A DNA stretch of 64,000 bases, from positions 1-64,000 of the IMG/VR virus record IMGVR_UViG_3300002334_000124; one strand, 5' to 3'. The notes below the pieces were generated by a model. The model saw only the letters and a program-made list of their open reading frames with translations. It ran no database searches and was not told the origin of the DNA. The position numbers were made by a program, and so were the translations under genes. Shown here piece by piece: positions 9,919 to 18,956 of the stretch. Position 1 is the stretch's first letter. Each line of letters starts with the position of its first letter. The stretch comes from a virus.

Positions 9919-9936
9919 TGTTACTATTCGGATGTG
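9919..9936 (+). promoter_or_regulatory. Extended -10 promoter of a leaderless HNH gene
   Basis: TG-T-TACTAT (9919-9927) is followed after six bases by the GTG start codon of the HNH gene. Same geometry as at 5721. Confidence 0.55.
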
Positions 9937-10320
9937 ATTTTCAGTCCGTATGACAAACATGGTTACACGCAGGGATCAGTGCAGGCAATCCTTGATCGGA
10001 AGCACGAAATGATGAGGGGTGGGCGCTCGAACAACATGAGCTACAAGATGGCTTACTGTGAGTGGCGAGACGGGTCGTTCTGCTACTGGTGCAATCGTGA
10101 ATTAGACATGTTGGATAAGAAGTCATTGATCCGCCCTACTCTCGACCATTTCCTCCCTGCCTGCCATGGCGGTCATAAGGTAGTCGAAAATCTTGTGCTC
10201 GCTTGCTACTACTGTAATCTCTACAGGGGTTCGACGCCTGCTTCGGCGACCTGCCTCTACTTGAAACATCGACAGGTGATCATGTGGATCATCCGAAGAA
10301 TGCGAAGACAGTTCAGATAA
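9934..10320 (+). CDS. HNH endonuclease
   Basis: Protein of 128 residues. The HNH core is complete: CYWCN zinc pair, TLDHFLPACHGG (catalytic DH and H), ENLVLACYYCN with the second zinc pair. Such free-standing HNH proteins in phage genomes act as homing nucleases or packaging nicking enzymes; its location inside a tRNA array favours the mobile kind. GTG 9934 is chosen as a leaderless start. Confidence 0.88.
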   Translation: MIFSPYDKHGYTQGSVQAILDRKHEMMRGGRSNNMSYKMAYCEWRDGSFCYWCNRELDMLDKKSLIRPTLDHFLPACHGGHKVVENLVLACYYCNLYRGSTPASATCLYLKHRQVIMWIIRRMRRQFR

Positions 10321-12593: not shown

Positions 12594-12635
12594 TCTAGTA
12601 GCGGTGTTTTCCTAGTGACACGCACCGCTACTAGA
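12594..12635 (+). ncRNA. Leader hairpin, perfect 13-bp stem
   Basis: TCTAGTAGCGGTG (12594-12606) pairs perfectly with 12623-12635. It starts directly after the CCA of tRNA-Met and ends four bases before the next tRNA. Confidence 0.8.
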
Positions 12636-12639
12636 ACTT

Positions 12640-12850: not shown

Positions 12851-12933
12851 GGGTCGACTGGGCATTGGAGAGCCCACCTGGCTGTAAACCAGACGTTTCG
12901 ACTGTGGCGGTTCAACTCCGTCTCGACCCACCA
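12851..12933 (+). tRNA. tRNA-Tyr (GTA)
   Basis: Acceptor GGGTCGA/TCGACCC, anticodon loop CTGTAAA on stem CTGG/CCAG, long variable arm as expected for Tyr, encoded CCA. Confidence 0.92.
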
Positions 12934-12998
12934 GAAGTCAATCAGGGAGACGCGGTTCGTTGCTCCGCTCCTTGCAACGAGAGGCCCTGGTTGACTTC
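12934..12998 (+). ncRNA. Long hairpin between tRNA-Tyr and tRNA-Gln
   Basis: GAAGTCAATCAGGG (12934-12947) pairs with 12985-12998 over 14 bp with one G-U. It starts directly after the CCA of tRNA-Tyr and ends eight bases before tRNA-Gln. Confidence 0.7.
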
Positions 12999-13006
12999 GT
13001 TCACGA

Positions 13007-13081
13007 TCCTCTATAGTGTAATGGCCAGCACCCGAGTTTTTGGCGCTCGTAGTTTGGGTTCGAATCCCAATGGAGGTACCA
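13007..13081 (+). tRNA. tRNA-Gln (TTG), 3' end carries a ribosome site
   Basis: Anticodon stem CGAGT/GCTCG with loop TTTTGGC, T-arm TTGGG/CCCAA, acceptor TCCTCTA/TGGAGGT with T-T at 1-72. The acceptor strand GGAGGT plus CCA is followed at once by an ATG, so it doubles as the Shine-Dalgarno of the next gene. Confidence 0.88.
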
Positions 13082-13243
13082 ATGGCACCACAAGATAGAA
13101 TTCTCATCTGCAAAGAATGTCTGCCCATGTTCGATCTTCGCCCTATGGAGCGTGTCGATCTGGGCATATGTGTCGAATGCGACTTGAAAGAAGTCGGCTA
13201 CATGTACGAATCGGCCCTCGTCAAGAAAAGGGGAACCGAGTGA
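13082..13243 (+). CDS. Small zinc-ribbon-like protein
   Basis: Protein of 53 residues with two Cys pairs, CKEC and CVEC, spaced 20 apart, the layout of a small zinc ribbon. ATG 13082 follows the CCA of tRNA-Gln with no gap, and its ribosome site GGAGG lies inside the tRNA acceptor stem. Translation would therefore need the unprocessed transcript. The stop overlaps the next GTG as GTGA. Confidence 0.7.
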   Translation: MAPQDRILICKECLPMFDLRPMERVDLGICVECDLKEVGYMYESALVKKRGTE

Positions 13244-13344
13244 TAGTTCTACCTAACGCCATTATCGGGATCATCATTGGAATAGTGGCTGCCTTTTCTC
13301 TCTCTAGGATTATCCGATCTCGTTCATCTGATAGTGAAGACTAG
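13240..13344 (+). CDS. 34-residue single-pass membrane peptide
   Basis: Begins with GTG 13240 (GGGGAA upstream, GTGA overlap) and reads VLPNAIIGIIIGIVAAFSLS, a membrane helix, followed by a basic then acidic tail (RIIRSRSSDSED). The last base of its stop codon is the first base of tRNA-Leu. Confidence 0.6.
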   Translation: MIVLPNAIIGIIIGIVAAFSLSRIIRSRSSDSED

Positions 13345-13420
13345 CCTGCGTAGCCTAACTGGTAAAGGCGATGGATTTAAGATCCATTATTTGTGGGTTC
13401 GATCCCCACCGTGGGCTCCA
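13344..13420 (+). tRNA. tRNA-Leu (TAA), short variable loop
   Basis: Acceptor GCCTGCG/CGTGGGC, anticodon stem ATGGA/TCCAT with loop TTTAAGA, T-arm GTGGG/CCCAC, encoded CCA. Only five bases (TATTT) separate the anticodon and T arms, whereas bacterial tRNA-Leu normally has a long variable arm. Confidence 0.87.
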
Positions 13421-13437
13421 ATCAACAAAAGGAAATC

Positions 13438-13719
13438 ATGAAAACAGTAGATCAATTTAAGTCACTAATACTGACGAATCACCCGGACTGTCCTTACACC
13501 AGAGTACGCAATCATGTGTTTTGCGACCCGAAGGGTGAGAGGATTCTGCGACAGTATCTTTTGGACCTTAATGACGAGGGTGAGTATCCAGACTTGGAGT
13601 TCTCCAACGCAGATGACGAGCTGTACGTTGTCACTCGGCATGGTGGCGAGATTCATTTCTTCGATGTTGTGGCTGGCGTTGAAGTAGATCGCAATTCAAG
13701 ACAGAAGAATCAAGATTAG
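13438..13719 (+). CDS. Hypothetical protein
   Basis: Protein of 93 residues, unrecognised. It begins MKTVDQFKSLILTNHPDCPY and contains CDPKGERILRQYLLDL and an acidic segment. AAAGGA precedes ATG 13438 by six bases. It fills the space between two tRNA-Leu genes, the second of which begins right after its stop codon. Confidence 0.7.
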   Translation: MKTVDQFKSLILTNHPDCPYTRVRNHVFCDPKGERILRQYLLDLNDEGEYPDLEFSNADDELYVVTRHGGEIHFFDVVAGVEVDRNSRQKNQD

Positions 13720-14304: not shown

Positions 14305-14380
14305 GCTGACGAACCGAATTGGCTAGGAACCGGATTGCAACTCCGGTATTATGGGGGTTCGAGTCCCTCCGTCAGCTCCA
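14305..14380 (+). tRNA. tRNA-Cys (GCA)
   Basis: Acceptor GCTGACG/CGTCAGC, anticodon stem CCGGA/TCCGG with loop TTGCAAC, encoded CCA. Confidence 0.94.
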
Positions 14381-16389: not shown

Positions 16390-16461
16390 GCCTCCGCTAG
16401 CGGATCTAGACTCGACCTTCCGAAGGTTGATGAAGGAGTTCAATTCTCCTCGGGGGCTCCA
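16390..16461 (+). tRNA. tRNA-Arg (CCG)
   Basis: Acceptor GCCTCCG/CGGGGGC, anticodon stem CGACC/GGTTG with loop TTCCGAA, encoded CCA. Confidence 0.9.
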
Positions 16462-16467
16462 AGATTT

Positions 16468-16541
16468 GCCCTCGCCAGTGGATTCTGGCCGCGAGATTCC
16501 TAATTTTGCTGGTTCGGGTTCGATTCCCGACGAGGGTACCA
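16468..16541 (+). tRNA. tRNA-Arg (CCT)
   Basis: Acceptor GCCCTCG/CGAGGGT, anticodon stem CGAGA/TTTTG with loop TTCCTAA, encoded CCA. Confidence 0.9.
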
Positions 16542-16542
16542 G

Positions 16543-16615
16543 GCCCTGCGCACTGGATGTGCAGTCGATGCTTCTAACTTCGACGTGTCAGGTTCGATTC
16601 CTGGGTGGGGCACCA
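16543..16615 (+). tRNA. tRNA-Arg (TCT)
   Basis: Acceptor GCCCTGC/GTGGGGC, anticodon loop CTTCTAA on a stem with one T-T mismatch, encoded CCA. Third of a tandem Arg trio. Confidence 0.88.
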
Positions 16616-16663
16616 CAAGGCAGATCTATTCAGTATGCTCACTCACAGAAAAGGGAGGGAACC

Positions 16664-17173
16664 ATGATGACTACCGGAGTTCTGGTCCTCAACGCCACAT
16701 TTGAACCGATCAACGTCATTCACCTTCATCGCGCTGTATGTCTCGTCGTACAGGAAAAGGCTGACGTGATTGAGTCTGTGGACGGTAAGACTTTCCGTTC
16801 GGCTAACACCGAGATTCCTTGCCCTTCTGTTGTGAAGCTTCGTTACTTTGTGAAGATTCCGTGGAAGCGAAGGCGTCCTGCAGTCACGAATCGTAACGTT
16901 CTTGGTCGTGACAATGATACGTGTGGCTACTGCGGTGGTGAGGCGTCTACCATTGACCACATTCACCCTCGCGCCCATGGTGGTACGAACGACTGGATGA
17001 ACGTGATTGCTGCTTGTTCGCCCTGCAATAGCACGAAGAGCGACCTAACCCTTGAACAGCTTGGTTGGGAACTACTCTTCAAGCCGACTATCCCAGCTGA
17101 TAAGACATGGCTGGTGGTGGGTTGGGCTGAGCGCGAACAACAGGCTAAGTATTTGCAGCACGCGACCATATAG
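16664..17173 (+). CDS. HNH endonuclease
   Basis: Protein of 169 residues. The N-terminal part (VLVLNATFEPINVIHLHRAV) is the typical opening of the actinobacterial and phage HNH family. The core has CGYCG, TIDHIHPRAHGG and NVIAACSPCNSTKSD, with both zinc pairs and the catalytic His. It sits between tRNA genes, fitting a homing or mobile role. AGGGAGG precedes ATG 16664. Confidence 0.92.
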   Translation: MMTTGVLVLNATFEPINVIHLHRAVCLVVQEKADVIESVDGKTFRSANTEIPCPSVVKLRYFVKIPWKRRRPAVTNRNVLGRDNDTCGYCGGEASTIDHIHPRAHGGTNDWMNVIAACSPCNSTKSDLTLEQLGWELLFKPTIPADKTWLVVGWAEREQQAKYLQHATI

Positions 17174-17405: not shown

Positions 17406-18956
17406 GTGGCTGTTCCAACTGATGAGATTACGGTAATAGGTCCTGCTGGTGGCGTGTTTGTCGTGCTGACGACAGACGAGCAGGAGTATTTCGAGAATCT
17501 TTGCGATCGATACACTAGAGACTATGCGTTCCAGAACGTTTCAGATCTTGCTGACTTAGAGCGTGTGATTCAGAACGAAGTTCTTTCACAGCGGTTTAAC
17601 CGTTTTCTGGGTACGGGCTTTGATTACTGGGGTGATCCGGTCTCGACTAAAGAGTTTACGGATGCAGTCAAAGGCCTGTCTCTCGAATTGCGCGGACTCA
17701 AGAAGGCTCTTGGAATTGATCGCATATCTCGCAAGCATGATTCGTCAGAATCCGTGTCGGATTATGTAACCAAGCTATTAGAGCGTGCTCGTGAATTTTC
17801 CGTAATGCGAAACGAGCAGACCACTAAAGTGTTAACGGTCTTCATGGAGTTACGCGCATTGGTTACCTTGCATGATAACTGCTTGAGTGGAGATACAGAA
17901 GTTTTGACTAGCAATGGTGTGGTTCCTATTGCTACGTTGGCCGACCTCAAGGCTACCGTTCTGAGTAAATCTGGATCCGGTAGGTGGGTTGAAGCCGAAT
18001 TCAAAAGCTTTGGAATGCAGCCTCTTATGGAAATTGTCTTAAAGAGAAATGGTGCAACGAAATTAGTGCGAGCCACGCCTGGGCATCGTTGGTATGTTAA
18101 CGGTCGAATCGTACGCACTGATGAACTGGATCCGGGCATGCGTTTAGATTCTTGTTGGGGTTCGCGTAAATCTGTGAGACCTTCACCACAGGGCGTGCAG
18201 GCGGGGATCGTGTATGGGGATGGGAGTTTAGACAAAAGACAAAAGTCAGGTTCGTTTGTAGTTCTCTGTGGTCTCAAGAATGAAGAACTTCTGAAGTGGT
18301 TCCCCAACAATGAAGTCAAACAAACTAAGGTGGGATTGAAGATCTGTGATCTTCCGCGTTCGTTTAAGTCTCGACCCTCTCTTGATGAATCGAGATCGTA
18401 TCTGTATGGGTGGCTCGCTGGATATTTTGCAGCTGACGGAACTGTGGACCGTAATGGATCACCTTCACTGTCTTCGACATCCTTTGAGTCATTGAAGATT
18501 GCCAGAAATGTTTGCTATCTGCTTTCGATCCCAACTTTGGGTATCTCGTCTGTTGATCGGATTAGCAACCTCACTGGCGAATCTTCAATACTTCACAGGC
18601 TTTCATTCCCAAAAGGTGCACTCGATCGAGAGTTCTTCTTGATTGAAGAACACAGGAATCGGTGGTCAGCCAGGACTCGGCTGGTCAAATCCTATGTTCC
18701 CGATTATGAAGTCGTCACGGTGCTTCCAACTGGTGAGGTGGAAGAGGTTTTCTGTGCCGTTGTTCCTGAATTCCAGAACTTCACTTTGGCTGACAATCTG
18801 CTTTCTGGTAACTGCACGGAGGAAGAACGTCGTACCCAAGGGGCCGAGATAGACGACATCTTGCAATGGCTTCGTGATTACGCATTTCCAGAGTTTGACA
18901 CCATAGACGCTGAGTTCATTAACTCCAGTCAGCGTTATTGGGTCCAGGAAATGTAA
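17406..18956 (+). CDS. Intein-containing protein before the terminase
   Basis: A 516-residue precursor. Residues 159-469 are an intein: it opens with CLSGDTEVLT, has LAGLIDADG-type homing endonuclease motifs (AGIVYGDGS near 262 and LAGYFAADGTV near 337), and ends VPEFQNFTLADNLLSGN before Cys 470. After splicing the host protein would be 205 residues, helical, joining ...VTLHDN to CTEEERR.... I do not recognise it; its position at the head of the packaging genes suggests a virion or packaging role. The start is GTG 17406 with GGAGG upstream and a promoter at 17357. Confidence 0.9.
   Translation: MAVPTDEITVIGPAGGVFVVLTTDEQEYFENLCDRYTRDYAFQNVSDLADLERVIQNEVLSQRFNRFLGTGFDYWGDPVSTKEFTDAVKGLSLELRGLKKALGIDRISRKHDSSESVSDYVTKLLERAREFSVMRNEQTTKVLTVFMELRALVTLHDNCLSGDTEVLTSNGVVPIATLADLKATVLSKSGSGRWVEAEFKSFGMQPLMEIVLKRNGATKLVRATPGHRWYVNGRIVRTDELDPGMRLDSCWGSRKSVRPSPQGVQAGIVYGDGSLDKRQKSGSFVVLCGLKNEELLKWFPNNEVKQTKVGLKICDLPRSFKSRPSLDESRSYLYGWLAGYFAADGTVDRNGSPSLSSTSFESLKIARNVCYLLSIPTLGISSVDRISNLTGESSILHRLSFPKGALDREFFLIEEHRNRWSARTRLVKSYVPDYEVVTVLPTGEVEEVFCAVVPEFQNFTLADNLLSGNCTEEERRTQGAEIDDILQWLRDYAFPEFDTIDAEFINSSQRYWVQEM

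Follow-up and report, generated by a model that had tools for sequence, protein, structure and literature searches.

A Shine-Dalgarno sequence probably located in the acceptor stem of a phage tRNA-Gln, directly before a 53-codon frame

The window (the whole 64,000-nucleotide stretch analyzed) came from an 84.8-kb virus record in which ARAGORN detected 33 tRNAs and a tmRNA. Within the tRNA array, tRNA-Gln(UUG) and tRNA-Leu(UAA) flank a putative two-gene cassette, encoding a 53-aa zinc-ribbon-like protein and a 34-aa membrane protein, that leaves no spacer on either side. The features of the locus were as follows:

13007–13081, + strand: tRNA-Gln(UUG) with an encoded CCA (ARAGORN; Rfam RF00005, 53 bits)
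13072–13077, + strand: GGAGGU, 3' strand of the acceptor stem, putative Shine-Dalgarno (SD) sequence of the 53-codon frame (from sequence; duplex energy -10.7 kcal/mol)
13082–13243, + strand: 53-aa open reading frame (ORF) whose first base lies right after the CCA; zinc-ribbon-like, with a pair of CxxC motifs and no matching family
13228–13233, + strand: AAGGGG within the 53-aa ORF, likely SD of the 34-aa frame (SD energy -8.8)
13240–13344, + strand: 34-aa ORF with a GTG start and a single hydrophobic segment that probably spans the membrane (coding score +0.15 per codon)
13344–13420, + strand: tRNA-Leu(UAA), the downstream edge of the cassette (ARAGORN)

ARAGORN placed tRNA-Gln(UUG) at 13007–13081 and Rfam at 13007–13078 (53 bits). 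Its acceptor stem (UCCUCUA / UGGAGGU) comprised six pairs and a U1·U72 mismatch, and the rest of the cloverleaf was intact. Read on the + strand, GGAGGT (13072–13077) was followed by ACCA (13078–13081) and at once by ATG (13082–13084), just as a preliminary description of this DNA had placed the start of a 53-residue gene. ARAGORN, Rfam and the sequence itself agreed that a complete tRNA-Gln with its CCA end stands directly before start codon 13082. U72, considered as a mark of selection for the SD at the expense of the tRNA, was rejected as such; the U1·U72 mismatch was present in 12 of the 53 tRNA-Gln genes in the loci fetched.

The 53-aa ORF product (MAPQDRILICKECLPMFDLRPMERVDLGICVECDLKEVGYMYESALVKKRGTE; stop TGA at 13241–13243) contained two CxxC pairs, CKEC and CVEC. 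Its TGA overlapped the GTG of the 34-aa ORF by four bases (GTGA), and tRNA-Leu began on the last base of the TAG stop of the 34-aa ORF (13344). Together, the two frames thus occupy the 262 bases between the tRNAs exactly. Weak matches of the 34-aa ORF were phrog_15309 (0.0018) and DUF2613 (0.0067). Tight packing is usual in the array, since a 93-aa ORF downstream of the cassette has its last base immediately before tRNA-Leu(UAG). Several other elements of the array were observed. Strong hairpins filled the inter-tRNA gaps at 12935–12998 (GAAGTCAATCAGGG...CCCTGGTTGACTTC) and 12597–12636 (CTAGTAGCGGTG...CACCGCTACTAG), and no Rfam family was found at either at gathering thresholds. A tRNA at 14305–14377 was detected by Rfam (41.7 bits) and missed by ARAGORN; TTGCAA in its anticodon region suggests tRNA-Cys(GCA). 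Two HNH endonuclease genes (9934–10320 and 16427–17173), with weak matches to IscB/Cas9d HNH domains, also lay within the array.

The 53-aa protein had no match in Pfam, PHROG or NCBIfam, and a HypA zinc-domain-like alignment was weak (E=0.51). A structure model was set aside as too low in confidence for use (pLDDT 52). Searches of phages and viral_contigs returned no homolog of this protein except one 100% identical copy, the 93-aa protein had no homolog in viral_contigs, and none of the 53-, 34- and 93-aa proteins had a homolog in the loci fetched. Among related phages the arrangement was seen only in the identical copy; the next nearest relative (85% terminase) ends short of the region. In composition-matched shuffles, an ATG headed a frame this long 7% of the time (2.3% with a coupled downstream start), so length alone is weak evidence for a gene. 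Codon usage of the frame scored above about 95% of off-frame segments and below 99% of the large genes of the phage, and ranked second of the six frames. The case for a gene draws on the CxxC...CxxC pattern, the four bases (GTGA) shared with the next frame and the way the frames fit exactly between two tRNAs, and a real gene at this position is quite likely.

The SD/anti-SD energy at ATG 13082 was -10.7 kcal/mol, a value equalled or bettered by 2% of random positions and, among the long ORFs of the window, by 9% of first starts. The other starts tested in this frame reached -3.6 (ATG 13070), -1.8 (TTG 13040), -1.4 and -0.5 kcal/mol. A start elsewhere in the frame, the outcome that would have counted against the preliminary description, thus had energies of only -0.5 to -3.6 kcal/mol, and its statement that GGAGG is well placed as an SD agrees with 13082 being by far the best start tested. 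The SD core lies in the acceptor 3' strand at a working spacing. Since the ATG adjoins tRNA-Gln, its ribosome-binding site must be the acceptor 3' strand, which reads GGAGGU; an SD located inside the acceptor stem is probably the right reading. The phage uses SD sequences in general (energies of -6 or better at 48% of the first starts of long ORFs vs 22% of random positions), and a 516-aa frame at 17406 was likewise preceded by GGAGGT.

An internal promoter could provide a transcript that lacks the 5' acceptor strand. The promoter scan of 12900–13450 yielded no site on the forward strand. Two candidates were discarded: a TTGACT...TATAGT pair with only 15 bases between the hexamers, and TATAGTGTAAT, which is ordinary tRNA-Gln sequence. 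Deleting the 5' half of tRNA-Gln in silico did not free the SD.

Freeing GGAGGU in its tRNA context had a predicted cost of 3.8 kcal/mol, compared with -10.7 kcal/mol for SD pairing. Opening the interval from -15 to +15 at 13082 was predicted to cost 11.1 kcal/mol, and 17 other starts of the window spanned 3.0–22.8 kcal/mol; by secondary-structure prediction this start was thus no less accessible than is usual for the genome. The predicted costs offer no evidence that it is unusually closed, and the proposal that folding of the tRNA should turn the gene off was not supported as stated. These values describe secondary structure and omit tRNA tertiary contacts, modification and co-transcriptional folding, and therefore leave room for sequestration.

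Processing weighs more than folding for the 53-aa start. RNase P cuts the 5' side of a tRNA, which leaves SD and AUG connected; 3' maturation parts them. In E. coli the tRNA 3' end is cut a few bases downstream and trimmed back to the CCA (PMC4681348); maturation of this type would destroy the start at 13082. An encoded CCA is cut between its two Cs in Streptomyces (S. coelicolor) and in P. acnes (PMC4681348, PMC3848588); P. acnes also has many leaderless mRNAs. Actinobacterial cleavage of this kind within the CCA could leave a near-leaderless mRNA beginning 5'-CA-AUG and a tRNA that is repairable. The preliminary description held tRNA processing and translation to be mutually exclusive; this would hold under E. 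coli-type 3' trimming and might fail under cleavage within the CCA. Exclusivity thus hinges on how the host matures tRNA 3' ends, and is no more than a possibility.

Recurrence was surveyed using two scans. The first required GGAGG in the exact register of tRNA-Gln followed by CCA-ATG. In viral_contigs it returned 18 contigs, in which every other true tRNA had an ORF of at most 15 aa; the non-tRNA matches belonged to a family of 317-aa genes in which AGGAGGTACCA-ATG serves as a normal ribosome-binding site. In genome_contigs there were 36 matches, and one was a complete tRNA with a plausible gene behind it. This cellular counterpart, in an Erysipelotrichaceae genome, is a 111-aa ORF (L097, ATG 2416) directly behind a tRNA-Cys with AGGAGG in its acceptor.

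The wider scan accepted GGAG anywhere in the acceptor of a complete viral tRNA with an abutting ATG, and used CTCC, of the same composition, as the control. Among the matches listed there were 48 GGAG and 70 CTCC true tRNAs, which formed 44 and 63 clusters. An ORF of 60 aa or more that overlapped no other tRNA stood behind 8 of the 44 GGAG and 3 of the 63 CTCC clusters listed (p=0.03). Genes judged real by manual calls numbered 8 in 43 GGAG clusters (window excluded) vs 1 in 63 CTCC clusters among the matches listed (p=0.003); two control ORFs were discounted by judgement, L325, where the opposite strand scores better, and L233, the first part of which is unlike protein. Also among the matches listed, ORFs of at least 50 aa gave p=0.015 with no filter, and a strict automatic "longest overlapping frame" filter gave p=0.10. 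That filter was rejected as too strict; it threw out the window ORF along with others. Besides the 53-aa ORF of the window, the ORFs headed by an ATG abutting a GGAG-acceptor tRNA included ones of 195, 194, 130, 116, 91, 75, 66 and 65 aa among the matches listed. No real gene lay behind 35 of the 44 GGAG clusters with an abutting ATG among these matches, and the same was true in nearly all cellular cases. Genes directly behind tRNAs without an SD also occurred (L302; the second gene on L060). The excess of GGAG acceptors before genes suggests that the acceptor strand serves ribosomes as an SD. In the open-access papers searched, no account was found of an SD inside a tRNA or of a phage gene whose start overlaps one.

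The layout was shared by several phages unrelated to one another. The best single cases included Raoultella phage Ro1 (NC_048682.1; loci L184 and L348), for which RefSeq gives a tRNA-Thr at 81806–81880 and an HNH endonuclease CDS at 81881–82273. The acceptor 3' strand of this tRNA-Thr, GGGAG, was the only SD within reach of the HNH start. In phages 4MG, GAP31, K54lambda1.1.1 and PVP-SE1 the matching tRNA-Thr ended in TGGGAGCACCA, followed by AACAAT and no HNH gene. Four relatives thus have the tRNA end and lack the gene; the SD-like acceptor is therefore older than the gene, which points to opportunistic sharing and against a dedicated switch.

On the reverse strand of L178, ATG 1603 adjoins a tRNA-Arg and heads an NT5C-like 5'-nucleotidase (PF06941, E 4e-4; phrog_420, E 2e-9). 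The frame offered no start farther upstream, and the first one downstream lay past the catalytic FDLDGT motif. With no other usable canonical start, the ATG at tRNA-Arg is the start, and any SD therefore lies within the tRNA. A second tRNA-Arg on this contig ends in GGAGGTGCCA, and a 181-aa ORF begins three bases later. Zero-spacer tRNA-gene-tRNA packing, as in the window, was seen on L186, and the ORFs on L166, L177 and L216 had ATGA overlaps at their ends. Separately, a 382-aa ORF on the reverse strand of L107 (ATG 3489) resembled, by eye, a tRNA 2-thiouridylase; GGTTCGACCCGTTCCGGAGGCTCCA upstream of it resembles a tRNA 3' end, and no tRNA was detected there.

Overall, the best reading of the locus, at a probability of roughly 0.56, is SD sharing by tight packing, with ordinary SD initiation on the uncut precursor and no dedicated switch. 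The 53-aa protein would be made by SD initiation on precursors in which the 3' end of tRNA-Gln is still uncut, and ribosomes would compete with the folding and processing of the tRNA. Such sharing may arise as genes settle right behind tRNAs that already have an SD-like acceptor. Compact packing with opportunistic sharing is better supported than a switch, which is unproven. That the folding and processing of tRNA-Gln serve to shut the 53-aa gene off, linking its output to tRNA supply or processing capacity, is very unlikely: pairing of the SD in the cloverleaf and the loss of the start region under E. coli-type 3' maturation fit such a switch, but the predicted accessibility of the start falls inside the range of the other starts of the phage, conservation was not seen beyond one identical copy in viral_contigs, and tRNA-Gln often carries U72, the base that lengthens the SD.

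Two further explanations concern the frame and its start. The ATG exactly adjoins the CCA, and 3' processing at or within the CCA, as between the Cs in S. coelicolor and P. acnes (PMC4681348, PMC3848588), the latter rich in leaderless mRNAs, could free an mRNA starting with AUG or CA-AUG, so that both products would be made and the SD would be incidental. Such a leaderless route is unlikely; it would not lead one to expect either the excess of GGAG over CTCC before real genes among the matches listed or so strong an SD at the 53-aa ORF. It is quite unlikely that the frame is untranslated or started elsewhere and that the pairing of GGAGG with ATG is chance. The frequency of such frames after an ATG in shuffles (7%), the ambiguous codon usage, the lack of a homolog in phages and viral_contigs, and the other true viral tRNAs with same-register GGAGG-CCA-ATG and no ORF above 15 aa are what chance would predict; the two CxxC motifs, the GTGA overlap with a second plausible gene, the exact inter-tRNA fit and an SD at 13082 far stronger than those of the alternative starts in the frame are not.

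If the translation is real, the same six bases both help to form the tRNA and bind the ribosome, and ribosome and tRNA nucleases have to share one RNA. More speculatively, transcripts with a gene directly behind an SD-bearing phage tRNA may be a class of their own, bifunctional as tRNA and mRNA, whose precursors would each yield either tRNA or protein (both where the host cuts within the CCA) and protein output would report phage tRNA processing. Isolates such as Raoultella phage Ro1 offer simple test cases for initiation on an intact tRNA-mRNA precursor. For annotators, a gene start on the base right after a tRNA can be legitimate.

The Ro1 HNH gene resembles the 53-aa gene of the window in that its first base directly follows the tRNA CCA and its SD lies in the acceptor 3' strand, and differs in its known HNH family, its known host (Raoultella), another tRNA and another SD register. 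Compact phage genomes have overlapping gene starts with ribosome-binding sites within the upstream gene. The window shares with them the site inside the upstream gene, the close packing and a coupling-type 4-base overlap downstream; their upstream gene is a coding frame, whereas here it is a structured, processed tRNA. In RNA thermometers and riboswitch-type leaders, cis-acting structures sequester the SD, and the SD of the window is likewise paired in a stable structure. Here, however, the pairing belongs to a working tRNA that processing takes away, and any sensing step would be hypothetical. In tRNA-mRNA operons, e.g., E. coli tRNA-tufB, the protein gene has a separate leader and its own ribosome-binding site after the tRNA. 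The window shares with tRNA-tufB a tRNA and a protein gene on one transcript, but has no separate leader, and its ribosome-binding site would lie in the tRNA itself.
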